From the IMG/VR virus record IMGVR_UViG_3300017788_004205, positions 1 to 64,000 of that record: a DNA stretch of 64,000 bases, one strand, 5' to 3'. Below the pieces are notes generated by a model. It saw only the letters and a program-made list of their open reading frames with translations. It made no database searches and was not told the origin of the DNA. This DNA is from a virus. Made by a program: the position numbers and the translations under genes. This document shows positions 46,152 to 64,000 of this stretch, in pieces; position 1 is the stretch's first letter; each line of letters starts with the position of its first letter.

Positions 46152-46616
46152 ATGAAAATCTTCGAGGAATACAAAAAAGACAAAGTGCATGAAGCCAAAG
46201 TATATGCTGGCGAACCTTTAAAAGAGGACATGGAAACTATCAAAAAGCATATAAATTCAGTCATTTTGAAGCCTTATAAGGTAAAAGCAGAGATATTTTC
46301 ACTGCATAGAGATTTTGGCGATTCTCAAACATTCATATCTAATCCCATAAGTGGAGCAGGTTTAGGTATATTCGGCCCAGCTATTGAGTATGTTCAATTA
46401 AATTTGGTTGTATCCAATCTGCCAAATAAATCAAATGCAAAAGAAATTGAGTTTTTGATTCGCTATACAACAAAAAGCAATTTGAATAACTCATTCCCAA
46501 GCGGTAAATATATTTTACAGGATGGGGTTATACAATTTGTAAGTTCAGAGGAAAACAAGCCTATTGAAGAAGTGGGTGAATCTAAATTTGCGGTTTCAAG
46601 CCACGATGAAATATAA
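46152..46616 (+). CDS. Tagged probable internal head protein
   Basis: 154 residues. The N-terminus MKIFEEYKKDKVHE shows the tag: F-x-x-Y and then V-x-E, close to the T4 internal-protein leader (MKTYQEFIAE). The remainder is mixed beta (VKAEIFSLHRDFGDS, EYVQLNLVVSNLPN, EIEFLIRYTTKSN). No catalytic motif is visible. First gene of the array after the portal, under an exact late-type motif. Inferred to be packaged in the head and cleaved after E14. Confidence 0.7.
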   Translation: MKIFEEYKKDKVHEAKVYAGEPLKEDMETIKKHINSVILKPYKVKAEIFSLHRDFGDSQTFISNPISGAGLGIFGPAIEYVQLNLVVSNLPNKSNAKEIEFLIRYTTKSNLNNSFPSGKYILQDGVIQFVSSEENKPIEEVGESKFAVSSHDEI

Positions 46617-46628
46617 TTTTTTTATAAA

Positions 46629-48947
46629 ATGAGATATTCTAACATACACGAATCATTTTTTGACTTTTTGAGATTTGTATCAGACGATGAAGAAAAGAGA
46701 ATCATCCAAAGAGTGGATGAATACTTAAATAACAATCCTGATTTTACTTATGATATGGAGTTCAATCTTCCAGGTCTTTGTCCAATAGAAAGAATTGCAC
46801 AATCATTAGTAATCAATGAAGGAAAGCTTAGAAAGGTTTTGAAGAATGTAGCTAAAAAAACAAATAGTATAGGCATAGCATCAGTTAGTTCAAAAGTATG
46901 GTCTGGTGATGTTCTTATATCTCTTAGTTTAGATGGTAACTTTAAGTTGAAAGGAAGTTCTTATAAGAGAAGTGTAGTAAGAGAATCATCAAATGATTCA
47001 ATTTCTGATTCAGGTGCTTATTTGAATGAATCATTTCTTTCGGCTCTTAAAAAAACTTTTGGATTTGGGACTTCAATAGATAAAGAAGAATTAGATAATG
47101 CGGCATTGGAAGTTGTAAAATTTCTTTATGATAGACCAGTTTATGACTATCATAAGAAAAGTGCTACTCCTGGGTTGATTTTCCTTTCTTTATTGTCTGA
47201 GGATAAATATACAAGTATTCCTTTCAAAACATTAGAGGAACTATTCAAATCAGATGTTTTAGATAACTGTGAAGTTATTAAGTTCAAATATAAAGATATC
47301 GAAGGCCCTCTTGTGGTATTTGGAAAGCCAGAACTAAGTAGAAAAGAATACCTTGTAGAGCACACAGCAGATTTCACAGAAATGCTTCTCATAAAAGAAA
47401 TTCAAAGAAAACTTATAGAAAAAGGGTTCTTAAATGATTATAATGATGACTTTAGAAGAAGAAAAAGTTCAATATCAGGAGAACTCAGTAAAGCTACTAT
47501 AACAGCTATATTGAATTTCCAAGATAAGTATAAAATTCCAACCGTAAGAAGAGGTGATATAAATATAGAGACGCTTCGTAAACTTGGGGTTAACCTTTCA
47601 TTCTTGGGTATTGACTTAAATATAAGTGAAACACCATTAATTGAAAAGTTGAAAAAAGAAGCAGAGTCTATCGGTCTTTCTCTTGCATCAAAAACATCAA
47701 GTCAACCAAAAATCACATCAATTGATGCTCCAATCTATACAGAAGATGGTTCCGATGATTATGATGATTCTTATTCTGAATACTCTTCACCAGAAGAAGT
47801 TCAGACTTCATCGGTTGATGATGAAACACAACAACCAACTCAAAGAATAATACAAACTGCATCACAACAATCAACTGGAGGTCAAACTCCGCAATTTACT
47901 GTTGGTGGAATTGCAGAAAGTGGAGTGATTGTAGATAGATTATTGAACGAATGGGATATTGTTAAAAGTTATGTTGATTCTGTTCAGAACATGAATATAA
48001 AAACTGAAACTTCTATGTTATTGATGTCAGCTATTGGAGATAATTCTAAACTATCTGAATCAACTAAAAAAGAAGTTCTCTCAAAAGTTCTTTATTTCAT
48101 GTTACAAGGTAAGGGGGGTTTCTTCCAAAATGTGGGAGGATTTGATAAGTTTCAAGGTGATTTGAATTCTTTGGTAAGAATAGATTGGATAGGACTTAGA
48201 AGTAAATTAATTTCCTATATCAATAATCCAGAAAATGTCGCAAAGGATAAAACACAAGGAAAAGAAATTTCAGATTCGTTAAAAGTAGAGCTTCAAGCTA
48301 TTCTTTCTAATTATGGTATAACTCCTACATCATCATTTTCAAGTTTCACTTCTTTTGCAAAAAGAAAGGAAGAAATGGGTTCTACTACAACCCCTTTTGT
48401 GAATCCAGATTTAGATGACGATGACGATGATGATGAAATAGAAATTTCTACAGATATTGCTCCTGAGCCTCCTGTTGTTCCTTCTCAAAAAATAGAAAAT
48501 GAATCTGACCCACGACAAGATAAGATAAAGGTAGATTTTATCGTATCTAAATTGATGGATAAAAATATGTTTGATTTCTATAATTCATTGACTAAAGAAA
48601 TAAAAAATAAAGAGAAGATAAAATCTAAAGGAATGGCTCCTACTCTAAGACTTGCTATAAATAAGATATTTGGAGAGCAATCGAAATTAGAATCTATCCA
48701 GAAAGAATCTATTATTTCTGAGTTGTTAGATATGTTACTTAAAAATGATAGTCTTTTCTCCAAAAATATGGGAAAGGCTCCTTTCATAAAGAAATTCTTC
48801 ACTACAAATGAACTTGATAAGTTTAATCAAGTTGATTATAAGAATCTCAGCTCAACTTTGATAGATTTTATTCTTTTCTCCGAAATAGAAGTAGCGAATG
48901 AAATCACAGCTAAACTAAACAGTTTATATGCTAAATATAGTAGTTAA
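46629..48947 (+). CDS. Large tagged protein with a peptidoglycan-binding-like domain
   Basis: 772 residues. The N-terminus is aromatic-rich (SNIHESFFDFLRF) without the usual tag spacing, but [LIV]-x-E sites recur soon after (SLVINEGK about 80, GAYLNESF about 138). Residues about 265-330 (LIKEIQRKLIEKGFLND, SKATITAILNFQDKYKIPTV, INIETLRKLG) form a PG_binding_1-like unit. The rest is helical, with two related segments (LLNEWDIVKSYVDSV; VSKLMDKNMFDFYNSLTKE) each followed by a helical repeat, separated by an acidic linker. No membrane segment is clear. Its end overlaps the peptidase gene by 20 bases. Probably a packaged structural protein or enzyme carrier. Confidence 0.65.
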   Translation: MRYSNIHESFFDFLRFVSDDEEKRIIQRVDEYLNNNPDFTYDMEFNLPGLCPIERIAQSLVINEGKLRKVLKNVAKKTNSIGIASVSSKVWSGDVLISLSLDGNFKLKGSSYKRSVVRESSNDSISDSGAYLNESFLSALKKTFGFGTSIDKEELDNAALEVVKFLYDRPVYDYHKKSATPGLIFLSLLSEDKYTSIPFKTLEELFKSDVLDNCEVIKFKYKDIEGPLVVFGKPELSRKEYLVEHTADFTEMLLIKEIQRKLIEKGFLNDYNDDFRRRKSSISGELSKATITAILNFQDKYKIPTVRRGDINIETLRKLGVNLSFLGIDLNISETPLIEKLKKEAESIGLSLASKTSSQPKITSIDAPIYTEDGSDDYDDSYSEYSSPEEVQTSSVDDETQQPTQRIIQTASQQSTGGQTPQFTVGGIAESGVIVDRLLNEWDIVKSYVDSVQNMNIKTETSMLLMSAIGDNSKLSESTKKEVLSKVLYFMLQGKGGFFQNVGGFDKFQGDLNSLVRIDWIGLRSKLISYINNPENVAKDKTQGKEISDSLKVELQAILSNYGITPTSSFSSFTSFAKRKEEMGSTTTPFVNPDLDDDDDDDEIEISTDIAPEPPVVPSQKIENESDPRQDKIKVDFIVSKLMDKNMFDFYNSLTKEIKNKEKIKSKGMAPTLRLAINKIFGEQSKLESIQKESIISELLDMLLKNDSLFSKNMGKAPFIKKFFTTNELDKFNQVDYKNLSSTLIDFILFSEIEVANEITAKLNSLYAKYSS

Positions 48948-49881
48948 AAAACCAAGAGATGTAGTTGATTATATTAGAAATGCTTCTACTGTAAAGGAAC
49001 GTTCTGATATTATTAAATATGTTAGTTCTAATTTTTTATCATACAAGACAGCAAGCGGAGAAATTCCGTTGAAGCTCGGGGATAAGAATCAAGATATTCA
49101 AGTTATCCAAAGTATTCTTGTAGGTTTGAATTTCTTAAAAGAAGAAGATTTAACAGGAGTTCTTGATGCTACTACAATGAAAGCTATAAAAAGATTGGGT
49201 TCACAATTCAAAATAGCTGTTGATGTTAATGCGCCTTTATCGAAGTCTATAATAGATTTATTTCTTAGGATGGAATATGGTCAGGATTACACACCTGGCA
49301 TGAAAGATATTCCAAAAGAAGCATATGCTGATAAATATAATTGGCCATCGAGACCAAGTGGACATAATCCACTTAAATACTCAGAAATTCAAAATATATT
49401 TGGAAAGATTGAATATGTTCCAACACATGGAAGATATATCAAGATAACAAATAACTTTATAAATGATAATATCATAAGTATAGAGATACCACAATTAGCT
49501 AAGATTGCAAATCCAAGAGGAACCAAAGTTAAATGTCATAGATTGATTGCAAATCAACTTAAAGCTCTTTGGGAGACTTGGGAAAAGGTTGGTCTTTTGA
49601 ATAGAGTTAAAACATATAATGGTCTTTTTGTCCAAAGATTTATGACTGGTACAAATAATACAAAATTAAGCTATCATTCATACGGAATCGCATTTGATAT
49701 AAATGCTGGAACAAATGGATATGGAGTAAATCCACCTGCTATTGGAGAAAAAGGTTCACTTAGAGAGCTTGTTCCTTATGCTATGGATTTAGGCTTTTTC
49801 TGGGGTGGTCATTTTAGAGGAAATAAAGATGGTATGCATTTCGAAGTATGCAAAATATTGAATCCAAATATTGTTGTTTAA
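48928..49881 (+). CDS. Peptidoglycan-binding and M15 (VanY-like) peptidase
   Basis: 317 residues. Residues about 48-110 are a PG_binding_1-like domain (LKLGDKNQDIQVIQSILVGL, GVLDATTMKAIKRLG). Residues about 195-317 match the M15 D-Ala-D-Ala carboxypeptidase/endolysin fold: SYHSYGIAFDIN with the zinc H-x6-D, and GMHFEV with the second H-x-E. It would cleave stem peptides in the cell wall. Its N-terminus aligns with the next protein only after that protein's tag, so it lacks the packaging leader. The ATG lies within the end of the preceding gene (20-base overlap). Confidence 0.82.
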   Translation: MLNIVVKKPRDVVDYIRNASTVKERSDIIKYVSSNFLSYKTASGEIPLKLGDKNQDIQVIQSILVGLNFLKEEDLTGVLDATTMKAIKRLGSQFKIAVDVNAPLSKSIIDLFLRMEYGQDYTPGMKDIPKEAYADKYNWPSRPSGHNPLKYSEIQNIFGKIEYVPTHGRYIKITNNFINDNIISIEIPQLAKIANPRGTKVKCHRLIANQLKALWETWEKVGLLNRVKTYNGLFVQRFMTGTNNTKLSYHSYGIAFDINAGTNGYGVNPPAIGEKGSLRELVPYAMDLGFFWGGHFRGNKDGMHFEVCKILNPNIVV

Positions 49882-49885
49882 TTTT

Positions 49886-50863
49886 ATGGAAAATAGAAGA
49901 ATACTTACATATGACAAATTCAATTTAAATGAAGTTCTAATAACAGGGCCAGAACAAGCTATTTCTATTATTTCCGCTGAGTCTGATAAGAGTGCTAAAA
50001 AGAGAATAATAAAAGAAATAGCGCAAGAATATTTCTCAGATGATTTGATTTTTGGTAGAACCCAACTTTCTTTGAATTCTCAAAGCCAAGATGTTTCTGT
50101 TTTACAAACAATACTTAAATCTCTCGGGTATTTGAAAAAGCATATAGTAGATGCGAAGATAGACCAAGAAACAATGATTGCAGTCCAATCGTTTGCAAAA
50201 GGTTTCGGGATTTCAGTTGATGTAAATCAGCCAATACCAGCTGATGTTATTAGAATACTAACAGAATTTGATTCTGCAAAGTATGATGAGATAGAAGCAA
50301 AAGAAACTCCTAAAAAAGAAATACAACAACCCTCGACTCCAACAACACTTTCTATCGTTATGCCACAATCTTCTGTTAATAGAGGAGAAGGTGCTAACTA
50401 TGGTGTTAATTTTCCAGACCAAAAATATGAGAATAAATATAAATTCTCCATTCAGTATAGTAAAGCAAAAGATGGTGAAAAAAATGTTTCTCCAAATTTT
50501 AAGGTAAAAGATTTTGCCTGTAAAGATGGCTCCGATGTTATACTTATAAACCCTTATTTAATTGAGCTTCTTGAAAAAATAAGAGCTCATTTTGGAAAGT
50601 CTTTGAACATAAATTCTGGATATAGAACCCCTCCATATAATAGAAAAATAGGAGGCGCTGGTATTTCTCAGCATATGTTTGGAAATGCAGCTGATTTTAG
50701 GATAGATGGAGTAACCCCTCTTCAAATATGTACATGGTTAAATACTTTTCATACAGGAGGCATAGGTCTTTATGTCACAAAAAACTTTACTCATGTAGAT
50801 GTTAGAAATGTTATTGGAACTGAAAAAGCCACATGGTCTAAACCGAAGAGCGTAAAGTTTTAA
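49886..50863 (+). CDS. Tagged peptidoglycan-binding and M15 peptidase paralogue
   Basis: 325 residues from the ATG at 49886 (a TTG 15 bases earlier overlaps the upstream stop). The tag is RILTYDKFNLNE, Y-x-x-F then L-x-E, with predicted cleavage after E16. Residues about 55-130 are PG_binding_1-like (QSQDVSVLQTILKSLGYLK, DQETMIAVQSFAK), paralogous to the preceding protein. The C-terminal domain is another M15-type peptidase: NSGYRTPPYNRKIGGAGISQ, SQHMFGNAADFRIDG with H-x6-D, and FTHVDVRN with H-x-D. I infer a wall-degrading enzyme released from the capsid on infection. Confidence 0.82.
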   Translation: MENRRILTYDKFNLNEVLITGPEQAISIISAESDKSAKKRIIKEIAQEYFSDDLIFGRTQLSLNSQSQDVSVLQTILKSLGYLKKHIVDAKIDQETMIAVQSFAKGFGISVDVNQPIPADVIRILTEFDSAKYDEIEAKETPKKEIQQPSTPTTLSIVMPQSSVNRGEGANYGVNFPDQKYENKYKFSIQYSKAKDGEKNVSPNFKVKDFACKDGSDVILINPYLIELLEKIRAHFGKSLNINSGYRTPPYNRKIGGAGISQHMFGNAADFRIDGVTPLQICTWLNTFHTGGIGLYVTKNFTHVDVRNVIGTEKATWSKPKSVKF

Positions 50864-50880
50864 TAAACAAATAATAATAA

Positions 50881-50889
50881 GATATATAT
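50881..50889 (+). promoter_or_regulatory. Late-type promoter motif (GATATATAT)
   Basis: It overlaps an in-frame ATG at 50888. A TTG at 50915 with AAAGGA upstream is 25 bases after the motif, the usual spacing, so the TTG is the likelier start. Confidence 0.5.
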
Positions 50890-50914
50890 GATACATAACA
50901 TAAAAGGAAATACA

Positions 50915-52141
50915 TTGAATACAGTAGACCCTATACTTTCTTTTAGAGACTTTATTACTTCCCAGAAGAGTCCGATTGGTCATTCTCATACTCTTATTGC
51001 AAATGAGTATATTCCAGTTGCTGAATCACTTTTAGAAAGTACCTTTATTCAATTGAATGAGGCACAAAAATGTATCTTAGAATTCATAAAAGAAAACAAA
51101 TTGAACCCTGAAAAGTGGATTTTGCTAAACGAAGATGATTATTACCAACGAGTTCAAGATTGGTTTAGTGAGAACTTTTTTAATCCTACTGAAAAGATTA
51201 TCAGTGGAGCTATTGAGTGGGTTAAAATATATGGTTCAAATTTGACAAATGCTGTTAGCGCTGTTGTTTCTAAATTTATGGAAAGCGTAAAAAATATTTG
51301 GGAAACAGTAAAAATAGATACAAACTCATGGTATCTTGGAAATAAATCTCTCAAAAGACAAGTTACAATGAGTATAAATCAGCAGTTCGGTGCAGTTGGT
51401 GAGTCATTAAATGAAAACTCTGAGGATTTTATATCGGAACTAACAAAAGAATCAAGTCAGCTTAACAATATGTTTGTAGAATCTGTTAAGAACATAGTAG
51501 AAGGAGAGTCTTTTGCTTCAAAGGTAACCATGTCTATAAATAAAATGCTGAATGAATCTAATAGCTATAATTATTCTTTTAATTCATCTTTGAATGGTAC
51601 AATTTCAGAACTTTTACCTAATGCTATAAAAGAAGGTGTTTTGAATGTAGAGCAATTTCCAATAGCATCTAAAAAAGGAAATATTAAAAGATTTGATGAG
51701 CATAATTCTGTTAATGAAGCATTTGAATTTATTGATAACTTTTTTAACTGGTGTGTATCAAAACTTGAAGTGCTTCCTCCATTTAGTTGGTTGAAAGAAT
51801 GGATGAATGAATTGGAAATTAAAAATAACTTAAACCAAACTCTTGAAGGTGCAAGTGCTTTTTTAACAAAATACTTTGGCATCCCAGGCCCTTATCAGTT
51901 TGAGAAATTAGACCCAATTTATTCTGTTATAATCACAGGATTGATAGACTTTGGTAAATATCAATTAGTCAATAAAGTTCTAACTGCCATTTTACCGTTT
52001 ATACCTATTGTTGGGCCTATTCTTTCGTTTATGCTTACTATTTATGGCTTCTTCATATTAGCTCAAATTATTTTTGAGCTTATTGAAAGTTTTAATGGTG
52101 GTGGAGATGAAACTTCAACTGAACCTCAACCTACAAATTAA
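50915..52141 (+). CDS. Tagged protein with C-terminal membrane segments
   Basis: 408 residues from TTG at 50915 (417 from ATG at 50888). TTG is preferred because the late-type motif overlaps the ATG, AAAGGA lies 6 bases before the TTG, and the resulting N-terminus NTVDPILSFRDFITS puts the F-x-x-F tag near the start. L-x-E sites follow (FIQLNEAQ, ILLNEDD). Two imperfect helical repeats occur (QVTMSINQQFGAVGES; KVTMSINKMLNES). Near the C-terminus two hydrophobic segments (LTAILPFIPIVGPILSFMLT, YGFFILAQIIFELIESF) make a hairpin. I infer a packaged protein that inserts into the host membrane. Confidence 0.68.
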   Translation: MNTVDPILSFRDFITSQKSPIGHSHTLIANEYIPVAESLLESTFIQLNEAQKCILEFIKENKLNPEKWILLNEDDYYQRVQDWFSENFFNPTEKIISGAIEWVKIYGSNLTNAVSAVVSKFMESVKNIWETVKIDTNSWYLGNKSLKRQVTMSINQQFGAVGESLNENSEDFISELTKESSQLNNMFVESVKNIVEGESFASKVTMSINKMLNESNSYNYSFNSSLNGTISELLPNAIKEGVLNVEQFPIASKKGNIKRFDEHNSVNEAFEFIDNFFNWCVSKLEVLPPFSWLKEWMNELEIKNNLNQTLEGASAFLTKYFGIPGPYQFEKLDPIYSVIITGLIDFGKYQLVNKVLTAILPFIPIVGPILSFMLTIYGFFILAQIIFELIESFNGGGDETSTEPQPTN

Positions 52142-52152
52142 TATTTTGATGT

Positions 52153-54093
52153 ATGATTACTAAATTTAACCAATATCAAAAACTTTTAGAAGATGAAATG
52201 ATTCAACCTATGTCTGCTGGTTCAGGTGGAAGTTGGATTGAAAAAGAATCTTTGAATAAAGGAGCCATTTCTGGTTACTTTGCCCGTAAAGCTAAGGCAA
52301 AGGCTGATTCTACTGTTACTACTCCAGAAGTGAAAGATGAAAAAACTGTTGTTGATGTTAAAACAGAAGAACAAATTCAAAACTATAGTCAACTATTAAC
52401 AGATACTCCAATCTTGAATATGTCAGCAAAGGCATATGCAAGTTTGAATGGTTTAACTCAAGATGGTAAAGAACTTGATTTAGAATTAGATGGAGATTTA
52501 ACAGAAGAAAGTGCTATGATTGATATTGCATATAAGTATTATATCAAGAATATCACAGATATTATTATGGATGTGCAAGACGCTCCAACTAATTATATGG
52601 TCGAAGAAGTTAGCCAAGATGTTCTGGTAAAACTAAATAATAACCCTATAACTATCGGGACTTTGATTGGGGGTGCTTTGACAGAATGGTTTGCGTCTAA
52701 GCAACCTATAAATAATTTGAATAGTTCTTTGGAATCGGCATATATTAGTCCAAAAGAAGGGTTGAGAGAATCATTTGGAATAGAAATGTATCCACTGAAT
52801 GAAAATTCTGGAAGAAGTGTAAAATTCATAACAAACCTTGTAAATAAATATCAAAAATTAGAAAAAGGAAGCGGTGTTACATCATCTTTAACTAAAGGTA
52901 AATTCGGTTCTGCTTTTTCTGGTTATACTCCAGTTTCAAGAAAATCTGGAATGAATTTAAGTTCTACTTTAGGTTCAGGTTCAGCTACAATGTCAAATCC
53001 TTCAGTAACAAGAGCTATTAATACTAAGATTCCAAAATCTTTGGATGATGTTAAGGATGTTGCAAATAAATTGTCCGCTGGAGGTAAAACCCCTAAAGCT
53101 GGTTTTTTGAAAGCCGCTGAAAACGCAATCAAGAACAGAACTTCAAACATAAACAGCAAGATACTTTCAGCCAAAAGTTTATTCAAATCGAATGTTATCT
53201 CTAAAACAATTGGACTCGTTTCTCTTTTTTATCTACCGAGCTTTGTTATGAATAAAGTTTTGGGTGAGTGGATGCGCTTTTTTGATTCTCCAAAAACAGG
53301 TGAAGAAAATGCAATAGACTTCTTAATGGCATTTGAAGAAGATATGGTATCAAGAGGATATTCTCCATTCAAAACCTATAATAAGATTTACAAAGATTAT
53401 CAATTTAATATTGATAAATATGGAAATAATTTCAAAGAAATAGTAGTTGGATGGTGTGAAAGTTTATACAATGCTAAAATCATAGATAATCAAATTTTTG
53501 ATATTTGTCAGCGCCAAATAAAAAGTGATGTTTTTGAAATATATATAAAAGAAAGCTCATATATTTCAAAAGAACTTTCTTCTTATTTAGAAAACAAATG
53601 GCAAAACAACATAACATTTCCTACTCCAACTTTAACAACATTTTCTACTATTGTGTTGTTTATTAGTTTATTGGAAAGATTTGAAGACCAATTTTATGAA
53701 GGTAAAATTCCTATTCAATTGCCTAAAGAACTTTCTGATATTAAAAGGTTCGATAAAGATGGAAATGAAAGAAATTATCTAACCATCGGAGATTCTGGTC
53801 AAGATGTTGTTATACTTCAAGATATGCTTAAAATGCTTGGATTGTATAGAGGAGAATCTGACGGAGTATATGATGAAGAAATTTCAAATCTAATTGAGGA
53901 TGTAAAGCAAAGAGCAAAGGTTTCAAACCCTGATGTTATAGTTGATGGTAATGCAGATAATGAAGCATTAGAATACATAGAAAAATTCCTCATTCTTAAA
54001 TCTGAAAAGGTTCAAGGAAATATTGGGGGCAGAATAAGCTCTCAAAAACAAGAACTGCGCTCTCAAGTCGCGAAGTCTCTTGATAATCGATAA
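52153..54093 (+). CDS. Large tagged protein with membrane segments and peptidoglycan-binding-like domain
   Basis: 646 residues. The tag is ITKFNQYQKLLE: F-x-x-Y then L-x-E. Residues about 220-330 are a Ser/Gly-rich low-complexity region. Two hydrophobic segments follow, near 352-370 (KTIGLVSLFYLPSFVMNKVL) and about 495-510 (LTTFSTIVLFISLLERF). The C-terminal domain (LTIGDSGQDVVILQDMLKML, then DEEISNLIEDVKQR) is PG_binding_1-like. The order of hydrophobic helix then peptidoglycan-binding domain matches the A-family proteins at 54118, 56342 and 61099, of which this may be a distant member. Confidence 0.68.
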   Translation: MITKFNQYQKLLEDEMIQPMSAGSGGSWIEKESLNKGAISGYFARKAKAKADSTVTTPEVKDEKTVVDVKTEEQIQNYSQLLTDTPILNMSAKAYASLNGLTQDGKELDLELDGDLTEESAMIDIAYKYYIKNITDIIMDVQDAPTNYMVEEVSQDVLVKLNNNPITIGTLIGGALTEWFASKQPINNLNSSLESAYISPKEGLRESFGIEMYPLNENSGRSVKFITNLVNKYQKLEKGSGVTSSLTKGKFGSAFSGYTPVSRKSGMNLSSTLGSGSATMSNPSVTRAINTKIPKSLDDVKDVANKLSAGGKTPKAGFLKAAENAIKNRTSNINSKILSAKSLFKSNVISKTIGLVSLFYLPSFVMNKVLGEWMRFFDSPKTGEENAIDFLMAFEEDMVSRGYSPFKTYNKIYKDYQFNIDKYGNNFKEIVVGWCESLYNAKIIDNQIFDICQRQIKSDVFEIYIKESSYISKELSSYLENKWQNNITFPTPTLTTFSTIVLFISLLERFEDQFYEGKIPIQLPKELSDIKRFDKDGNERNYLTIGDSGQDVVILQDMLKMLGLYRGESDGVYDEEISNLIEDVKQRAKVSNPDVIVDGNADNEALEYIEKFLILKSEKVQGNIGGRISSQKQELRSQVAKSLDNR

Positions 54094-55650: not shown

Positions 55651-56274
55651 ATGAAAATTCGCAATTTCAACGACTTTATATTAAATGAACAATCACTTTT
55701 TGAAGAAGGTGTTAAATCATCTAATCCTGAATTAACATCTAAGTTAGTTCAACTATTGGATGAAAAAAGTGAAGATGTAAATACAATCAAAGGATTGATT
55801 AACAGAGGTGCTGATATTAACGCAGTTGATACAGAAAAAGGAGCGAGCGTTCTTCATTTTGCGGCTATGCTGAACAGTGTAGATTTGGTGGACTTTTGCT
55901 TGAAAAAGGGAATCCCTGTTGATGTTAAAAGTAAAGCTAAAGCCACGCCTCTTCATTGGGCATGCACCAATAAAGCTTTAGAAGCTGTTCAATTCCTTAT
56001 AAAAAATGGAGCAGATGTAGAGGCTGTAGATGAAAATGGGATGACAGCATTGCATCATGCTTCTTATACGAATTCGATTGCAGTTGCAAAATATCTTGTT
56101 TCAATTGGAGCAAATCCAAATGCGGAAGATAAAAATGGTAAAACTCCTATTGAATTAGCAATGGAAGAAAAAGCAAAAGGGACCGTTAAAGCCCTTTCTT
56201 CTTCTGTTGATTTTTCTAACTTTGAATTTGAAGGAAAAGTTTATGATTTTTCAAAACTTATACCTCAAACTTAA
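55651..56274 (+). CDS. Tagged ankyrin-repeat protein
   Basis: 207 residues. The tag is textbook for the window: IRNFNDFILNE, F-x-x-F then L-x-E. Residues about 45-175 are four ankyrin repeats: NRGADINAVDTEKGASVLHFAA, KKGIPVDVKSKAKATPLHWAC, KNGADVEAVDENGMTALHHAS and SIGANPNAEDKNGKTPIELAM. The C-terminus (FEFEGKVYDFSKLIP) is a short added segment. Ankyrin repeats bind other proteins. With a capsid tag, this protein would enter the host with the DNA and could bind a host factor or defence protein; the target is unknown. Confidence 0.85.
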   Translation: MKIRNFNDFILNEQSLFEEGVKSSNPELTSKLVQLLDEKSEDVNTIKGLINRGADINAVDTEKGASVLHFAAMLNSVDLVDFCLKKGIPVDVKSKAKATPLHWACTNKALEAVQFLIKNGADVEAVDENGMTALHHASYTNSIAVAKYLVSIGANPNAEDKNGKTPIELAMEEKAKGTVKALSSSVDFSNFEFEGKVYDFSKLIPQT

Positions 56275-56306
56275 TGCTTAAAATTGAAAAAGGAATTTCA
56301 ATTTTC

Positions 56307-56316
56307 GATATATACT
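56307..56316 (+). promoter_or_regulatory. Late-type promoter motif (GATATATACT)
   Basis: Close copy, 26 bases before the ATG at 56342. Confidence 0.55.
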
Positions 56317-56341
56317 AAGAGATAAAAAATACAAGTAAATC

Positions 56342-57829
56342 ATGCTATTTAGAAACTTAAATTTTGACAAAAAAGCCCAAAATATATCAGAAGGAAATTT
56401 TATTTCTGCTGATTTTCTGGGGATTTTTGATAGTGATGCAAAATCTAAACTCGCAAATCTTACAATAGATAAGATGTTTGAGGGGTTAGATTTAGAAAAA
56501 AGTGCAGAATTGCATGATTTTATTGAAGCATACGCCCCTTCTTTGAAAGCACAGCCTGCTACAAGCACAACTCCTTCTATAACCGATGCTATGGGATTGC
56601 AAAATTCTAAAAAAAGTGTTTTCGAGCTTATTAACTCTCAATTACACTATATGCAATTAAGATTAGAAGGTGTAGAAAGGGAACTTGATAAATTTTACAA
56701 AGACATTGAAACAGCTTATAGTAAAACAATATCCAAAGAAGAATTAGAAGGTTCTGTATCTGGTTTTACAAGCCCAGAAAATATAGCATCTATAATACCT
56801 AAGATTAATTCTATTGTAGAAGAAGCGATAAAAACAGGTCTTGTAAATTTTGAAAATTCAAGCACAAAGCAAGCATTTTTAACTCTGCATAAGTTAAAAA
56901 TTAGCAGTTATATTTTTGCATTAAGAGAGAATATATTAAATGATGCTAAAAATGTTAGCATTTTACCACTATACAGAAAAATAGATTCTCTTGATTTAGA
57001 AGAAATCACAGCAGAAAACGCGATGCTTTCTGAAATAAAGTCTTATATGGACAATCCTCTTGATATATCGGGGATGTATAAATCATTTGACCCAATCGCA
57101 AGAATTTCAGCTTTCTTGGAAGAATCGTTGATGCAATACGAATATGGTATTGACTTGAGGAAAACATTTGGCTCGAATTATACGGAAACATTCAATAATT
57201 CAGAGGCATTGTCAACAGGAGTTTTAAGAAAGTTTGTGAAGACAATAGATATTAGTGTTTTTGAGCCATTACAAGAACTCTTGTATGATGTTGCTCTTAC
57301 ACTTATCCAAAGAGTTTATGCCCAAAATACTGATGAAGATGATAAGAATATATTTGTTCCTTCTCTTCAGTTCATGTATCTTTCTATGATTTCTCTTCTT
57401 GCATTTAAGCTTATTGATTATAATCTTAAAGTTAAAACAGCTTCTATCCAAAGAGAAGAAAGAATCAAAGCTGAACAACAAGCGGCAGTTGTTGAAGACA
57501 AGAAATCAAGAGCGATGAAATTATATGATACATACAAGCAATTGAATGCTTTGAACTTCTTCAAAAAGGGCGGTCTTGTTTACAAGAAAGAATCAAATAG
57601 AATGCTTCCAGAGATTGTTAAGTTGATTAATAACTTCTTTGTTTATGCAGGAGACCTTGATAAATCTAAATTAGATAGTCCTACTTTTGATGATATGACT
57701 TATCAAGCTGTGTTGAAGTTTCAAACAGAAACTGAATGCAATCTCAAAGACGGCAAAATAGGAAATGAAACAAGAGGAAGAATGCAGGGAATTGCAGAAG
57801 CAACAGCATCATCTTATAGCATTGTGTAA
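56342..57829 (+). CDS. A-family tagged protein: membrane helix and peptidoglycan-binding-like domain
   Basis: 495 residues, clear paralogue of the protein at 61099. Shared N-terminus: I-S-E (likely cleavage after E17) then GNFISADFLGIFDSDAKSKL and LTIDKMFEGLDLE. Shared centre: NVSILPLYRKIDSLDLEEIT and SFDPIARISAFLEESLMQYEYG. Shared hydrophobic segment: KNIFVPSLQFMYLSMISLLA with FKLIDYNLKV, near residues 337-365, then a charged helix and a PG_binding_1-like end (MLPEIVKLINNFF, YQAVLKFQTE, DGKIGNETR). It has its own late-type motif. Inferred packaged protein, membrane-inserted with a wall-binding tail. Confidence 0.7.
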   Translation: MLFRNLNFDKKAQNISEGNFISADFLGIFDSDAKSKLANLTIDKMFEGLDLEKSAELHDFIEAYAPSLKAQPATSTTPSITDAMGLQNSKKSVFELINSQLHYMQLRLEGVERELDKFYKDIETAYSKTISKEELEGSVSGFTSPENIASIIPKINSIVEEAIKTGLVNFENSSTKQAFLTLHKLKISSYIFALRENILNDAKNVSILPLYRKIDSLDLEEITAENAMLSEIKSYMDNPLDISGMYKSFDPIARISAFLEESLMQYEYGIDLRKTFGSNYTETFNNSEALSTGVLRKFVKTIDISVFEPLQELLYDVALTLIQRVYAQNTDEDDKNIFVPSLQFMYLSMISLLAFKLIDYNLKVKTASIQREERIKAEQQAAVVEDKKSRAMKLYDTYKQLNALNFFKKGGLVYKKESNRMLPEIVKLINNFFVYAGDLDKSKLDSPTFDDMTYQAVLKFQTETECNLKDGKIGNETRGRMQGIAEATASSYSIV

Positions 57830-57862
57830 TTCTCAAATATCCAGAAAAAAATAAATAGTCTT

Positions 57863-58780
57863 ATGGAAAATAAAGTATTTAAATATCTGAATTTTATAGA
57901 ACCTAAGGAACCATCAAGTATATCATTTTATGATAATCTCAATGAGTCCAATATTTATAATACAGAATCCTATAAATGGGCATATAAAGATATTAATTTA
58001 GAAAATTTTGATACAAAATACACCAGTATTTTCTACAATTCCCTTTCTAAGCTCCTCTACGGTGAGTCTGGTAAACCAGAAGAGCCTAAATTCGGGCCAG
58101 GGTATGAACAGAGTAAGTCTAAATTGGAAAAAACACAAAAGCTTTTTTCTCTTATATGGAACAATGCAAAAAGCGCAATCAATAAACTTTTACAGGATAA
58201 TAAAACTATTTTTCCTAAAAGTATAATAGATGAAATTAGCAAATTAGAATATAATTTACCAAAAGATTTTACAAGTTCGGATTATATATTCGATAGACTT
58301 AAAAATAATAATCTGGATGGTTTCCCAGAAAACTTAAAGTCTAAAATTAACAAAATTCAGATAAATACTAATGAACTGAAAAATTATTCTATTGGTATTT
58401 ATGAATCAGTTACAAATAGCAATAAAGATAATTTTAACAAAAATATATCAACAACATTAGGCAATGACGTTAAGAATATAGTAGAAAAGTTGAAGAAAGT
58501 CTATTTTCCAAATCTTCAAAATTACTCTTCGATAGAAAGTGAAATGAAGGATACTTTCTCATCATTATATGTTGATTGTTACCTTTATACTTTATCAAAC
58601 TCTATCTTCAATTATAAGAAAGGTTCTTCTGATATCGTTAAAAAACAAGATGCTTCTACTGAAGTTAAAAAAACAGTTTCGCGTAAGTCGAGTGGAGCAA
58701 CTAAAAGAGAACAAGCATCTTCTAAACAATTATCAAAGGATGATTGGACAAATATATTGAAGAAAAGGGGATTACTTTAA
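57863..58780 (+). CDS. Tagged helical protein of the array
   Basis: 305 residues. The N-terminus VFKYLNFIEPKE has F-x-Y and aromatic residues, with a stronger L-x-E at DNLNESN near residue 30. Residues about 50-110 (SIFYNSLSKLLYGESGKPEEPKFG) align in style with the LNTVIYGTSDKQKNTGSPVD region of the 58808 protein, suggesting distant relation to the B family. Mostly helical; no membrane segment and no wall-binding domain. The C-terminus is basic and Ser-rich (TVSRKSSGATKREQASSKQ). Function unknown. Confidence 0.62.
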   Translation: MENKVFKYLNFIEPKEPSSISFYDNLNESNIYNTESYKWAYKDINLENFDTKYTSIFYNSLSKLLYGESGKPEEPKFGPGYEQSKSKLEKTQKLFSLIWNNAKSAINKLLQDNKTIFPKSIIDEISKLEYNLPKDFTSSDYIFDRLKNNNLDGFPENLKSKINKIQINTNELKNYSIGIYESVTNSNKDNFNKNISTTLGNDVKNIVEKLKKVYFPNLQNYSSIESEMKDTFSSLYVDCYLYTLSNSIFNYKKGSSDIVKKQDASTEVKKTVSRKSSGATKREQASSKQLSKDDWTNILKKRGLL

Positions 58781-58807
58781 TTCAAAAATTAAAAATAAAA
58801 AAATATC

Positions 58808-59932
58808 ATGATAATAGAATTTTCTAAATTCGCATCTTTGAAAGAAAATGTAACAGTTAACACTAATTTTTTATTTGAAGATATGTTTGATGAAAAAAGT
58901 CAATCGGAAAACATATCTAAAAACGCAGAAGTTATATCTAAAAATGTTATAGATAGTTCTTTATCTCTCAAGGATAATATAAAGAACTTTTTATACAATA
59001 AATTAAATACAGTTATTTACGGAACATCCGATAAACAAAAAAACACAGGCTCTCCTGTGGATTATATAGTAACTAATAGTGAAAAGCTCATAGATTATGC
59101 TGTTGAAATACAAACAACTGGAACTTATTCGACATTTTGGAGAAGCACTATGGGATATTTTGGAACATTTGCTATTGCAGTCGCTACGGCTTGGTATTTA
59201 TGGAAAAAAAGAAGTGCTTATAAAAAGGCTTTACAGTATATTATTAAACCAGAAGTTGAGGCTGAATTTATACAAAAGACCGAAACATCTGGTGTGCTTA
59301 AATTAAAAAAGGATGTTGAGAATTATAAAAGAGGTCAAGAGTTGTTCAGAGAAACTAATGGCAAGTTTTATGTTCTTCTACCTTTAGGTAGTAAAGAATA
59401 TCTAAAATTTGGTTACGATAAAACTCTAACCAGACCTATGAAGGATATTCTATTAGATGAATGGAAGAATTTACCATTAAAAACACCTTCTACTTCTACA
59501 ATAAAGAAAGTTGGGATATTTTTATCAAGAGTATCACAACCTCAAGCTTTGGCTACTGCTGGAGCTACAATATCACTACCATTTATATGGGAAAATTTGA
59601 ATGTTTTATGGGATTGGTTTATGAGCAATGTTAAGTCAGATGAACCTGGCTATAAGACATTTGTAGAACTTGGGACTGTAATAAATAATAGAGAACAGTA
59701 TATTGAGAAGTTTTATCAATCTTTGATTGAAACTCCAGCCTTTGATAAGGATTTGGATTTGCCATATAATGTTATTACCTCAATTTCTAATTTCGATAAA
59801 TTAGGTATAGATAATCCCGATAAAATTGGATATGCTGTATGTAGATTAATAGCACAAGCAACATTTGAATATCAAAAAGGAACAGCAGTTTCTACGATAT
59901 ATTCAGCCGTATCAAATGAATTAAAAGCATAA
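58808..59932 (+). CDS. B-family tagged membrane protein
   Basis: 374 residues. Tag IIEFSKFASLKE: F-x-x-F then L-x-E. LNTVIYGTSDKQKNTGSP matches in layout the V-x-YG-K/T segment of the 59939 and 62526 proteins. A transmembrane helix lies near residues 118-138 (MGYFGTFAIAVATAWYLW, followed by KKR), with a second hydrophobic stretch near 240-265 (ALATAGATISLPFIWENLNV). The C-terminal NPDKIGYAVCRLIAQATFEYQ resembles the B-family GY-[LI]-FTY signature. I infer a packaged, membrane-inserted protein working with the A family. Confidence 0.65.
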   Translation: MIIEFSKFASLKENVTVNTNFLFEDMFDEKSQSENISKNAEVISKNVIDSSLSLKDNIKNFLYNKLNTVIYGTSDKQKNTGSPVDYIVTNSEKLIDYAVEIQTTGTYSTFWRSTMGYFGTFAIAVATAWYLWKKRSAYKKALQYIIKPEVEAEFIQKTETSGVLKLKKDVENYKRGQELFRETNGKFYVLLPLGSKEYLKFGYDKTLTRPMKDILLDEWKNLPLKTPSTSTIKKVGIFLSRVSQPQALATAGATISLPFIWENLNVLWDWFMSNVKSDEPGYKTFVELGTVINNREQYIEKFYQSLIETPAFDKDLDLPYNVITSISNFDKLGIDNPDKIGYAVCRLIAQATFEYQKGTAVSTIYSAVSNELKA

Positions 59933-59938
59933 AATAGG

Positions 59939-61084
59939 ATGATAACTAATTATAGCGATTTTGTATTAAACGAAGGTTATACTAATCCTCAAAAGGTTTA
60001 TACAATAGATAAGATAAAACTTAGAACTCAGGGTGAGTATTTAGCTAATCCTTCTCTTATAGATGAAGATATAGCTAAGTTTAGAAACTTATCGGAACTC
60101 ATAAATTTAGATGATATTTTAAGAAAAAAAGATTATAGTAAATATTCATCCGCACTAAAAGAATTTATCAAAACGAAAGCATATAATAAGTTAGTAGAGG
60201 TAATGTATGGTAAGGGATATAATAATCCAGAAAAAGATTCTACAGAAATAATAGTAGGATTAGACCCATCTTCAATGGCTTCTGCTATGAAATATGGCTC
60301 TACTCCAAAAACTATTAAAATGACTCGCGGAGAATACTTCAAAAAAGTTTGGGCAAGAGTTGATGAATATTGTGATAATTCTGTTGAATTTTTACAAAAA
60401 GGCATAATAGAAGATACATTAGGGGATTTTGTAGATTATAGTAAAAACATACTTTTAATAATACTCGCGGCTGTTATTATCTATTTCGGGGCAAAGGCTA
60501 TGGCAGTAGGAGCATCTGGAGTTGTAACTTTTGCGTCATCTACCACAGGTCTTTCTGCTATACGTAACATAATATTAAATGCAGGAGTTAAGTCAATGCC
60601 CTTTGTTGAAAAGTGCTCCTTGGCTATACAGAGACTTGTATCTAATCCTAAAACTTGGATGAGTTTAGCATCATGGGAAATATTTGATGCGGCTCCTAAA
60701 ATAATAGAAATGTTTTCGTCTAATGATGCTGACGTTTTGCTACAACTCGATGAAGAACATATTTTAGAAAAACTCTCAGAAAAAAACAAAAAAGTACAGA
60801 TAGCAAAAATCAAGAAAGCATTGGAAGAGCATTCTGACTTCAATGTTAAACCATTTTTAGACGGCCCAGTTCAAGTATGGCAAGATGCATTTCAAAGGAT
60901 GCCAGGGTGGGAAGCATGGTCTCAAAAAGAAGGTAAATCTATAAACAACAATCCACAAAATCTTGGTTATATATTTACATATTACATAGCTTTATACGCA
61001 TATCAATTTCAACTATTTATTTGGAAATACAATTATCTGCTAACATTAAAAGAAGGTAGAGATGTTGATTTTTCAAAACTTTAA
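59939..61084 (+). CDS. B-family tagged membrane protein
   Basis: 381 residues. Tag ITNYSDFVLNE, Y-x-x-F then L-x-E. LVEVMYGKGYNNPEKDST is paralogous to IEVFFGKDYLKKPGFNPEKDTT in the 62526 protein, and both continue to a W-x-x-x-D-x-x-C-x-x-[SA]-V-E segment (WARVDEYCDNSVEF). A strong membrane helix is near residues 168-186 (NILLIILAAVIIYFGAKAMA). The C-terminus RMPGWEAW and LGYIFTYYIALYAYQF repeats as MPGWSKSTW and IGYLFTYWISYYSY in the paralogue. I infer a pore- or conduit-like packaged protein. Confidence 0.7.
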   Translation: MITNYSDFVLNEGYTNPQKVYTIDKIKLRTQGEYLANPSLIDEDIAKFRNLSELINLDDILRKKDYSKYSSALKEFIKTKAYNKLVEVMYGKGYNNPEKDSTEIIVGLDPSSMASAMKYGSTPKTIKMTRGEYFKKVWARVDEYCDNSVEFLQKGIIEDTLGDFVDYSKNILLIILAAVIIYFGAKAMAVGASGVVTFASSTTGLSAIRNIILNAGVKSMPFVEKCSLAIQRLVSNPKTWMSLASWEIFDAAPKIIEMFSSNDADVLLQLDEEHILEKLSEKNKKVQIAKIKKALEEHSDFNVKPFLDGPVQVWQDAFQRMPGWEAWSQKEGKSINNNPQNLGYIFTYYIALYAYQFQLFIWKYNYLLTLKEGRDVDFSKL

Positions 61085-61098
61085 AATAAGAACTAACA

Positions 61099-62523
61099 AT
61101 GCTCTACAGACCTATCCATCCAAATAAAAAAGAAGATATTAACAGAGTAGATGAGAGTAATTTTATCTCTTCTGATATGTTAGGTATATTTGATTCAGAT
61201 GCAAGAGTTAAATTAAGTGCTCTCACAATAGATAAATTATTTGAAGGATTAGATATAGATAATTCAAATGAAATTCATAGTTTCATTACTTCATTTGCTC
61301 CTTCCTTATCAAAAGTTATGGGAGTTTATAGTTCAGAGTCTAACTATGCATTCGAGATTCTAAAGGCTCAACTGATGTATATGCAAACTATTTTGCAAGA
61401 TGTTGAGAATGATATAGATTCTTTTTACAAGAATGTAATTAATGTTCACAAAAGCTATACAGACGGCCAAACAATAGAAACTCTTGTTGCTAAGTATAGC
61501 AATCCAAATAGTGTTGGTTCTATTTTCCCTGAGGTTGAAAAAATAGTTAAACAAGCAAAGAAATCAGGAGTTGATTTTAATAACCCAAGAGTTAAAGAAA
61601 CATTCAAAACTCTTCAAAAGTTGAATGTTAGCACTTATATTAGTCAAACCCTAAGTTCAATTGAAGTTTCAGCTTCAAATGTAAGTTTGCTTCCTCTTTA
61701 CAAGAAGATAGATGGAATGAATTTAGAAGAAATCACGGGAGATAATGCAATCGCTCCTCAAAACAAGAGTCATTTGTTTTTAACTCTTGATTTCAATTCT
61801 ATGTATACTTCTTTAGACCCAATTGCAAGACTGGGAGCTTTCTTTGAAGAAACTTTATTGCAATATCCATTCGGAAGACAATTAAAGAAGAATTTCGGAG
61901 ACGAGTATGAGTATTTTGATACTATTGAACATAGCATGTCTGCTATAAAACAATTTGTTCCTTCGGTTGATTATACTGTATTTGAACCGATGAAAGAAAT
62001 GCTTTATGAAATTAGTGCTTTATTGGTAAATCGAGTGTTTTCAATGCACCCAGAAGAAGATTCTAAGAATATATTCGTTCCTTCTTTTCAAGTTATGTGG
62101 GTGAGTATATTATCTCTTTTAGCTTTAAGACTCATTAACTTTAATGTTAGAGTTTCAAATGTTATTACTCAAAAAAAGGAAGAGAAAAAAGAACTAAAAT
62201 CCGAAAAAGCATCTGAATTAACTCAAGCTTATGAAACTCTAAAGCAACAAAACTTCTTTACAGACAAAATTACCTATAAAGAAGGTGATGCGACAATGAA
62301 TCCAGAGATAATCAAAAATATAAATAATATCTTAGTTAAGTTGACAATACTTCCAGATTCTAAGATTAATTCTACGCAGTATGATAGTCAAACAGCGGAA
62401 GCTATTAGAACACTTCAAATGAATCATTCTGCTGAATTTGTTGATGGGAAGATAGGTCAAGAAACAAAAGAAATTATGGAAAAGATTATCAATCACATAC
62501 AAAATAAATATAAAATGTCTTGA
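61099..62523 (+). CDS. A-family tagged protein: membrane helix and peptidoglycan-binding-like domain
   Basis: 474 residues, paralogue of the 56342 protein along its length: V-D-E then SNFISSDMLGIFDSDARVKL and LTIDKLFEGLDID; NVSLLPLYKKIDGMNLEEIT; SLDPIARLGAFFEETLLQYP; hydrophobic KNIFVPSFQVMWVSILSLLA with LRLINFNVRV; then a PG_binding_1-like end (MNPEIIKNINNILVKL, SQTAEAIRTLQMNHS, DGKIGQETKEIM). The pair A (61099) then B (62526) repeats the earlier A and B genes, pointing to block duplication. Confidence 0.7.
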   Translation: MLYRPIHPNKKEDINRVDESNFISSDMLGIFDSDARVKLSALTIDKLFEGLDIDNSNEIHSFITSFAPSLSKVMGVYSSESNYAFEILKAQLMYMQTILQDVENDIDSFYKNVINVHKSYTDGQTIETLVAKYSNPNSVGSIFPEVEKIVKQAKKSGVDFNNPRVKETFKTLQKLNVSTYISQTLSSIEVSASNVSLLPLYKKIDGMNLEEITGDNAIAPQNKSHLFLTLDFNSMYTSLDPIARLGAFFEETLLQYPFGRQLKKNFGDEYEYFDTIEHSMSAIKQFVPSVDYTVFEPMKEMLYEISALLVNRVFSMHPEEDSKNIFVPSFQVMWVSILSLLALRLINFNVRVSNVITQKKEEKKELKSEKASELTQAYETLKQQNFFTDKITYKEGDATMNPEIIKNINNILVKLTILPDSKINSTQYDSQTAEAIRTLQMNHSAEFVDGKIGQETKEIMEKIINHIQNKYKMS

Positions 62524-62525
62524 AA

Positions 62526-63620
62526 ATGGAAAACAAAAAAAGAATACTCAATTTTCAGAATTTTGTAATCAATGAAAGTTCATTACATGAGTCTAATACA
62601 GTAGATATCCCAGATTCAGAAATTTCAAAGATTCTTGATAGAGATATGACAACATATCTAAAAGGTCGTATGTGGGAAAAAAGTATTGAAGTTTTTTTTG
62701 GTAAAGATTATCTTAAAAAACCAGGTTTCAATCCAGAGAAAGATACTACTCCTATTACCGTAGATAATTGGATTTCAGGCAATGTATCGATTGATGCTGG
62801 TGGGTTTTTTAGAGATTCTTGGCAAGAGACTGACCAATTTTGCAATAGAGCAGTTGAGCTTGTAAAGACAGGTGAGTTATCAGATTTCTTAGGTAAAATT
62901 GCAGTCCCAGCTGGTTGGGCTGGAATAACCGCTGCAACAGTAGCGGGTCTTATAGCTATTGGTGGGATTGCTATTCCAAGTGCTACTATTGCTTCTGGCT
63001 TTATAGGAGCGACAGGAGGATTAGGATGGGGTGCAATAGCAATTAACACATCTGCGCTTGGTTCATTAGCTCTTAATTTAGCCCCTTTATTTTCGGATAA
63101 TCCAAAGATTGACCCAAGTCTTCAAAGAATAGCAAAGATGGTTATTAACAAAGAAGAAACTATAAAAGAATTTCAAAATGCTTTACAAGAACATTCTGAT
63201 TTTGAAGCAGATTGGGGTCTTGATAATTGGTTATCAGGAATAGATGAGATGCCAGGATGGTCAAAAAGCACTTGGAAAGAAAAAGGAGCAGATAATATAG
63301 GCTATCTCTTTACTTATTGGATTTCTTATTATTCTTATATTTACTTAAAAACAAAATTTGGAGCTTCTGTTGCTCAGGCTATAAAAAACTTTGAACAGGG
63401 TGGCGGTTCTGTTAAATTGATTGATAAGCCATTTGAAATCAATCAAAAAACATCAATAGAGCCCATTTCTAAGCCTTCTGAGGGGACTTCAGGTTCTACT
63501 CCTATAAATTCTCAAGTTCAAGCACAAGGAAGCCCTGTGGCGACCGCAGATGCCTCAAATTGGGTTAAAAAGAGAGAAGTTACCGTCAATGACGAAGTTC
63601 TTTCAAAATATGGATTCTGA
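62526..63620 (+). CDS. B-family tagged protein with a long hydrophobic region
   Basis: 364 residues from the ATG at 62526; a TTG two codons earlier overlaps the preceding stop. Tag ILNFQNFVINE, F-x-x-F then I-x-E. The B-family YG/FG-K segment and WQETDQFCNRAVEL follow. Residues about 130-195 are a long Gly/Ala/Ile-rich hydrophobic region (GITAATVAGLIAIGGIAIPS onwards), enough for two or three membrane passes. The MPGWSKSTW and IGYLFTYWISYYSY signature is near 245-280. The C-terminal 80 residues are Ser/Gly/Pro-rich and flexible. Inferred membrane-inserted packaged protein. Confidence 0.7.
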   Translation: MENKKRILNFQNFVINESSLHESNTVDIPDSEISKILDRDMTTYLKGRMWEKSIEVFFGKDYLKKPGFNPEKDTTPITVDNWISGNVSIDAGGFFRDSWQETDQFCNRAVELVKTGELSDFLGKIAVPAGWAGITAATVAGLIAIGGIAIPSATIASGFIGATGGLGWGAIAINTSALGSLALNLAPLFSDNPKIDPSLQRIAKMVINKEETIKEFQNALQEHSDFEADWGLDNWLSGIDEMPGWSKSTWKEKGADNIGYLFTYWISYYSYIYLKTKFGASVAQAIKNFEQGGGSVKLIDKPFEINQKTSIEPISKPSEGTSGSTPINSQVQAQGSPVATADASNWVKKREVTVNDEVLSKYGF

Positions 63621-63672
63621 TACATTAAAACTTATTTTTTTAACATTATTCGTAATGTAGGTTTTAATTTTA

Positions 63673-63682
63673 GATATATAGA
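63673..63682 (+). promoter_or_regulatory. Late-type promoter motif (GATATATAGA)
   Basis: Exact copy, 24 bases before the GTG at 63706. Confidence 0.6.
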
Positions 63683-63705
63683 GTAAATCAAAATTTTGAA
63701 AAAGC

Positions 63706-64000
63706 GTGATTACAAAGTTCGACATATATTCAAATAATAAACTGAATGAGATAGCTGGTATTTATGATGGTTATTATGGGACAACTCTAAAAGATTTTAG
63801 AATGTCCGATTTATACCAAATTACAGCTCTTTCGGCTCAATCTACCATTGAAATCTTCAATGGTAATGATACATTTCAAACCGCACTTCTTCCTACATCT
63901 TCACTTTGGAATATGATTGATGTTGGTTATAAATCATGTACTACTGGTATGCTTTCCTTACTTAAAGCAAATTTCAAGAAATCTGATATAGAAGCGTTTG
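63706..64000 (+). CDS. Tagged protein continuing past the window end
   Basis: At least 98 residues, open to the last base. The start is GTG at 63706, 24 bases after an exact late-type motif; the encoded N-terminus ITKFDIYSNNKLNE carries the array tag, F-x-x-Y then L-x-E, with predicted cleavage before I-A-G. The visible remainder (YDGYYGTTLKDFRMSDLYQ, TTGMLSLLKANFKKSD) is not recognised. It shows that the array of packaged-type proteins extends beyond this window. Confidence 0.65.
   Translation, partial: MITKFDIYSNNKLNEIAGIYDGYYGTTLKDFRMSDLYQITALSAQSTIEIFNGNDTFQTALLPTSSLWNMIDVGYKSCTTGMLSLLKANFKKSDIEAF

Follow-up and report, generated by a model that had tools for sequence, protein, structure and literature searches.

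The window analyzed here is a 64,000-nucleotide stretch of virus DNA, bases 1 to 64000 of IMG/VR record IMGVR_UViG_3300017788_004205 (86,812 bp; G+C content, 31.7%; labeled G000), and from position 46152 onward it holds an array of genes, many of whose products begin with a short leader peptide resembling the capsid-targeting sequence (CTS) of T4 internal head proteins. We put at about 0.88 the probability that this leader is a T4-type CTS and that the tagged proteins are packaged in the phage head and cleaved, in which case the array would be a cargo island of a jumbo or mega T4-type phage. An earlier note, made from the sequence alone, had proposed that the leader is a sorting signal for a large set of packaged proteins; that proposal is now supported by the match to both halves of the T4 signal, by N-terminal enrichment of the motif, and by a prohead protease in relatives. 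The fifteen consecutive genes described in the note all exist, head to tail on one strand, and every N-terminal peptide it quoted is present. The array follows directly on the gene for a T4-type portal protein, gp20 (44391..46040, + strand; Pfam Portal_T4, E = 5e-68), and runs on the same strand past the end of the window, where the gene at 63706 ends at 64986 and a sixteenth tagged gene, with the full motif, lies at 64997-65455.

The G000 portal is 82 to 85% identical to portals in 11 IMG/VR contigs (83 to 85% for L010-L013), ~40% identical to those of many further contigs, and 33 to 39% identical to portals of 462- to 735-kb huge phages and Prevotella Lak phages (39% for the 462-kb phage LR756500). 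Close relatives L003-L013 and L101-L104 have the portal followed by most of the array genes, with order kept. Two relatives recur below: G001, a 199,927-bp contig whose portal is 85% identical to that of G000, and G006, a 256-kb sister phage. The host of the window phage is probably a member of the Bacteroidota. Searches of phage records with the whole array (megablast) and with two array proteins (tblastn) returned no match, and the latter result suggests that the cargo bodies are clade specific.

The full motif was defined as [FY]xx[FYW], 0 to 10 residues, and then [LIV]xE, beginning at residues 3 to 12; these position-restricted counts replaced a de novo zero-or-one-occurrence-per-sequence (ZOOPS) motif search, which overfitted (free mixture weight, 0.93 to 0.98). 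In G000, 15 of 91 N-termini match (P = 9e-12); the frequency of the motif in internal stretches of these proteins predicts 0.8. The control suggested in the earlier note, a motif search against shuffled sequences, gave the same picture, with 1.9 ± 1.4 matches among shuffled N-termini and a maximum of 7 in 1,000 shuffles. Matches are concentrated in the array (10 of 16 genes versus 5 of 75 in the rest of the record; P = 3e-6). The note had also reasoned that an equal frequency on other phage proteins would speak against a sorting signal; in the 46 kb upstream of the array, only 2 of 51 genes match, and the replication proteins (primase, helicases, and UvsW) do not carry the full motif. Its statement that most array genes are tagged holds, with qualifications: the full motif occurs in 9 of the 15 (46152, 49886, 52153, 54118, 55651, 58808, 59939, 62526, and 63706), but 48928 has no leader, 50888 and 57863 have the aromatic half only, and 46629 is an incomplete match.

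The likeness to T4 extends to individual positions. In the T4 record, ipII and ipIII begin MKTYQEFIAE and ipI begins MKTFKEFTSTTTPVSTITE (MKTFKEFTST...ITE). Cutting the 95-residue IPI after ITE19 leaves 76 residues, equal to the reported length of mature IPI* (PMC3012670). Suppressor mutagenesis of IPIII assigned targeting to residues 4 and 7 and processing to residues 8 and 10 (PMC9026906), which are exactly the positions of the aromatic pair and of [LI]xE in the array leaders. Gene 50888 and its orthologues retain FxxF/Y without an adjacent cleavage site, which fits the separation of targeting from processing in T4. Like the array proteins, T4 IPI, IPII, IPIII, and Alt carry an N-terminal leader of 10 to 19 residues with aromatics at i and i+3 followed by [LI]xE, placed on otherwise unrelated bodies, and T4 and the group of the window phage both have a gp21-type protease, a gp20 portal, and a gp23 capsid protein. 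T4 differs in having four such proteins, compared with ~20 to 40 per phage here, clustered in islands, and in its cargo, since that of the window phage includes large multidomain, peptidoglycan-binding, and membrane-like proteins.

That the leader ends in a true cleavage site is supported at two positions that the search pattern leaves free. Among 64 leaders from three phages, position P1', immediately behind the predicted cut, is occupied by S, A, or G in 30 (background, 20%; P = 2e-6), and position P2 is occupied by N in 35 (background, 6.4%). The boundary of the leader can be seen where paralogues differ in having it. Genes 48928 and 49886 are M15 paralogues that align over ~130 residues at their N-termini; in 49886, the leader MENRRILTYDKFNLNE precedes the region common to both proteins, and leaderless 48928 begins no more than 3 residues from the last glutamate of that leader, with the same pair found in relatives. 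Beyond the window, another M15 protein (83600-84220) has a different leader, MKYIKRLELFNNHSCVNE, fused to the catalytic domain of 48928 alone. Orthologues of 63706 differ in their leaders, retaining only the aromatic pair and [LI]NE, and agree almost completely in the IAGIYDGYYG that follows. An AlphaFold model of an A-family array protein (mean predicted local distance difference test [pLDDT] score, 82) has residues 1 to 32 disordered; a model of the B family (pLDDT, 54) was not used. These sequence comparisons show the leader to be a separable module carried by unrelated bodies, in agreement with the earlier note's description of the bodies as otherwise diverse: ankyrin, M15, PG_binding_1, RimK, and phosphoribosyltransferase types all carry it.

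A candidate processing enzyme is encoded by relatives. G001 has a 672-residue protein with an S77 domain (Pfam, 3e-11), followed by gp23 (8e-40). Aligned with its relatives, this protein gives an hhalign match to T4 gp21 (E = 1.6e-8) over the GxLDHP and SSRAAG regions, whose conserved His and Ser lie among invariant columns, as expected of a gp21-type peptidase S77. The gene lies ~85 kb upstream of the portal, a region outside the G000 contig. More distant sisters have, in order, the portal, a small CTS-bearing gene (KTFEQFISE in L042), the protease, and gp23, an arrangement that parallels the T4 order 20-67-68-21-22-23; the first array gene, 46152, occupies the slot of the small post-portal gene of sister phages (MKTFEQFISE), corresponding to the place of T4 gp67/68.

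Behind the S77 domain, the G001 protein continues into a tail with ten exact copies of [FY]xx[FY][LIV][AS]E (YSNYLAE, YTEYIAE, and others) at spacings of 14 residues or multiples of seven. The tail has 11 copies in close relatives of G001, 5 to 7 in sister phages, and 11, 11, and 14 in the 636-, 642-, and 735-kb phages, mostly at exact 14-residue spacing; in the prohead protease of the 735-kb phage (L128 [LR756501], 17995-20418), most of the 14 CTS-like heptads are in perfect 14-residue register. Shuffled sequences contain a mean of <0.04 heptads. Copies within one protein are duplications and not independent; the heptad is, however, retained across very divergent phages. The T4 CTS has this heptad as its core (YQEFIAE), and many cargo leaders take the same form (YTSFLNE, FIEFVNE, and FEQFINE). 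An S77 domain with a long tail, in one gene before gp23, is already known from Serratia phage BF, GAP32, PBECO4, and Tenacibaculum phage PTm1, where it bears annotations like "prohead core scaffold and protease." Tandem CTS-like heptads distinguish the tails of the window's group and the 636- to 735-kb phages, whereas the PTm1 tail has other repeats. Searches of the open-access literature turned up neither a leader census for this clade nor a description of the tandem CTS-like heptads.

The tag is genome-wide, at ~20 to 40 proteins per phage. In G001, the full motif is present at 23 of 216 N-termini (4.2 expected) and a looser core at 40 (10.9 expected). G006 has the full motif at 27 of 316 N-termini (6.3 expected) and the exact T4 heptad at 23 of 316 (0.8 expected; P = 7e-18), and at 193196-200277, 14 of 15 consecutive small genes have the heptad or a near match, forming a second kind of island. 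PTm1 was rejected as a further tagged phage, with no leader family among its proteins, and serves as a negative control. The Sphingobacterium phage PAU, a cultured relative, is alike in having ~20 short genes, many of them near portal, protease, and capsid, that share one leader (MKTLxxLYEAKLNEA), but it lacks the window-phage motif; its own consensus, LxxL[YF]E, occurs on 19 of 282 genes (0.2 expected). Four of five PAU GenBank entries named "internal capsid protein" carry the PAU leader (P about 1e-4). The basis of that label is not stated, and the one labeled protein without a leader suggests that the labels were not assigned from it. From N-terminal sequencing, the PAU major capsid protein is reported to be shortened from 585 to 520 residues (PMC5646251), which agrees within one residue with a cut after LME64, and the G001 capsid protein has LNE followed by SS at the corresponding position. 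PAU also differs in having protease and scaffold as separate genes; L[YF]E-type motifs occur three times in the protease, in its C-terminus, and gp155 (0.33 expected), a weak parallel to the scaffold repeats. CTS-tagged internal head proteins as a kind are already known; the novelty lies in their number, their grouping in islands, the types of cargo, and a protease-scaffold with tandem CTS-like repeats. As a side observation, G001 contains, on the reverse complement at 181957-186477 (L091), about six small proteins of one family whose starts look like signal peptides (M..LIIFLF..SVFAQ..); three leader-tagged paralogues (MKY[VL]KLFE[NS]WLNE) lie interspersed among them.

The array genes, all on the + strand, vary widely behind the leader. 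Gene 1 (46152..46616) has the leader MKIFEEYKKDKVHE, with A after the cut. Gene 2 (46629..48947; 772 amino acids) starts with MRYSNIHESFFDF, in which an aromatic pair and I-H-E followed by S fall within the pattern Y-S-N-[IV]-x-E-S-F-F-D-F; it aligns with its G001 orthologue over about the first 100 residues only, the remainder being strongly diverged. Gene 3 (48928..49881) encodes a peptidase (Pfam Peptidase_M15_4, 2e-15) with a weak PG_binding_1 match, and its orthologues are likewise leaderless. Gene 4 (49886..50863), which probably starts at 49886 and not at the TTG at 49871, has V after its leader and combines PG_binding_1 with Peptidase_M15_3 (Pfam, 5e-22). Gene 5 (50888..52141) begins ..ILSFRDFITSQ and has two membrane-like segments (360-378 and 381-399) toward its C-terminus. 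Gene 6 (52153..54093) has the leader MITKFNQYQKLLE before D and a C-terminal PG_binding_1 domain (548-591). Gene 7 (54118..55572), an A-family member with C-terminal PG_binding_1, has a leader that its orthologues do not conserve; they have a later [FA][IL]NE followed by S in common. Gene 8 (55651..56274) has MKIRNFNDFILNE before Q and ankyrin repeats (Pfam Ank, 2e-27). Gene 9 (56342..57829; A family) has ..NISE followed by GNFISAD, a membrane-like segment at 337-355, and a PGB-like (peptidoglycan-binding-like) C-terminus. Gene 10 (57863..58780) starts with MENKVFKYLNFIEPKE, without a clear cleavage site. Gene 11 (58808..59932) has MIIEFSKFASLKE before N. Gene 12 (59939..61084; B family) has MITNYSDFVLNE before G and a membrane-like segment at 164-182. 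Gene 13 (61099..62523; A family) has ..RVDE followed by SNFISSD, and PG_binding_1 (1e-5; PGB, 402-470). Gene 14 (62526..63620; B family), which probably starts at the ATG at 62526 and not at the TTG at 62520, has MENKKRILNFQNFVINE before S and a membrane-like segment at 132-150. Gene 15 (63706..64986; in the window to 64000) has MITKFDIYSNNKLNE before I and a C-terminal PG_binding_1 domain. The note's remark that the A family keeps only the x-E part of the motif is accurate for 56342 and 61099, both of which have lost the aromatic pair, but 54118 has the full motif and orthologues of 56342 retain FKNF...[LI]NE.

What the cargo does is less certain than its packaging. Clear or marginal matches to PG_binding_1 are present in 49886, 52153, 54118, 61099, and 63706; M15 peptidases in 48928, 49886, and 83600; and membrane-like segments in 5 of 17 array-region genes compared with 3 of 74 elsewhere in the record (P = 0.005). 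The A family consists of a helical domain, a membrane-like stretch in a 56-residue helix, and a C-terminal wall-binding domain; in the model of 61099, which is the one mentioned above, the membrane-like segment (325-343) falls within helix 328-383. The ejection proteins of T7, P22, and N4 form a trans-envelope conduit. The A and B families may resemble these proteins in function, as head-packed, membrane-like, and wall-binding proteins, a likeness of logic only: T7, P22, and N4 are short-tailed phages, homology of their ejection proteins to the A family was not found, and comparison with PDB sequences and folds matched the PGB domain only. We infer, tentatively and at somewhat below even odds, that the array cargo is an envelope-crossing kit. 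There is a nearly even chance that the cargo is instead a mixed set of host-takeover and antidefense proteins, of the kind that T4 IPI and Alt represent, lacking a shared role at the envelope. The diversity of the tagged bodies, which include ankyrin, RimK-like ATP-grasp, phosphoribosyltransferase, and FMN-reductase-like proteins, fits such a broader takeover role, and the G006 island of small diverse proteins resembles the ip genes of T-even phages. The recurrence of membrane-like segments, PGB domains, and M15 peptidases in this array argues for a shared envelope function, and PADLOC, whose library lists defense and not counterdefense proteins, gave marginal matches only. In phiKZ and SPN3US, many proteins also occupy a giant head and some are trimmed after x-E by the prohead protease (PMC10052503), but those phages differ in cleaving at A-X-E, mostly after long propeptides, with ~80% of head proteins uncleaved and a short common leader not reported.

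In the mechanism that we propose, by analogy with T4 genetics, the aromatic pair [FY]xx[FY] would dock each new protein onto the prohead core, the gp21-type S77 protease would then cut at [LIV]xE (mostly [LI]NE before S, A, or G), and the mature protein would stay in the head with the DNA and be ejected at infection. Since in this phage group the protease is fused to a scaffold-like tail of repeated CTS-like heptads, the cargo leader most likely imitates one scaffold repeat. These steps could together form a sequence code for head loading in jumbo and mega T4-type phages, in which the protease-scaffold is a tandem CTS-heptad polymer, one N-terminal copy gives both core entry and release by the same protease, and dozens of proteins are loaded, among them a membrane- and wall-binding set ejected for DNA envelope crossing; we regard the code as a whole as possible, though rather less than evenly so. 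An improbable alternative is that the motif is a protease recognition site only (P7, P4, P3, and P1), with other contacts bringing the proteins to the head and removal of the leader serving as activation, for example, of the M15 peptidases. The same heptad in the protease's own tail may indeed reflect self-processing, and, judged from their catalytic fold, two tagged enzymes could be under zymogen control. However, T4 mutagenesis separates targeting from processing, the orthologues of 50888 keep the aromatic pair without a site beside it, and there is no reason for the tagged ankyrin, phosphoribosyltransferase, and RimK types to be zymogens.

Tail lysins commonly have peptidoglycan-binding and M15 domains. 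The presence of such domains in the array, together with one weak match to a tape-measure family, might suggest that the array encodes wall-penetrating parts of the tail or baseplate and that the leader has another role. We consider this very unlikely: the array comes directly after the portal, its leaders equal the CTS of T4 internal proteins, the T4 prohead protease acts inside proheads, and many tagged proteins (ankyrin, phosphoribosyltransferase, and RimK) are not tail-like. Least probable of all is that the leader directs proteins to an intracellular compartment built by the phage, an idea suggested by other jumbo phages, which sort proteins into a nucleus. Against it, the replication proteins lack the full motif, four of five PAU proteins labeled "internal capsid protein" carry that phage's leader, and the leader matches the T4 CTS exactly.

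Several observations weigh against packaging as the explanation for the leader or against the proposed role of the protease tail. Six of the 15 array genes lack the full motif, one of them (48928) consistently leaderless; the motif is short, so that chance would account for ~3 of 25 matches to the looser core, which a thioredoxin and an SSB-like protein also match. The earlier note had proposed checking for a gp21-like protease elsewhere; G001 and 7 of 7 sister records searched encode one, but no S77 protease (PF03420) was found in the 86.8 kb of G000 itself, an absence attributed to the record being a fragment. The tail of the 462-kb phage holds a single heptad, its repeats almost gone. T4 gp22 lacks the heptads and does not detectably resemble the fusion tail (hhalign probability, 0.4%), and the tail is called scaffold-like from its position, its repeats, and the annotation of relatives.

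Outside the array, two further genes on the + strand carry leaders. A RimK-like ATP-grasp protein (28376..29827) has the exact T4 heptad YTSFLNE followed by S and is possibly a head-packaged peptide ligase; it also has a marginal C-terminal match to Zn_protease. A small protein (13697..13972) has the leader MLTFNEYKDEKNKALLE followed by D. Elsewhere in the window are a translation initiation factor IF-3 with both domains (18960-19478, − strand; Pfam IF3_N, 4e-29; IF3_C, 1e-17), which a G001 gene resembles (92883-93413, reverse complement); a collagen-like protein (23783-25783, + strand; Pfam Collagen, 9e-50), whose GNQGNQG repeats account for long antisense and alternative-frame open frames there; and an Hsp20 small heat shock protein (27875-28300, + strand; 3e-21).

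For huge phages that have not been cultured, relatives of the 735-kb phage among them, a search for the leader would allow head cargo to be listed from sequence alone. The heptad common to cargo leaders and the scaffold-like tail may offer a direct, testable answer to how the T4-type CTS is recognized. The tagged wall-binding, membrane-like, ankyrin, phosphoribosyltransferase, and RimK proteins are candidates for proteins injected into Bacteroidota hosts.

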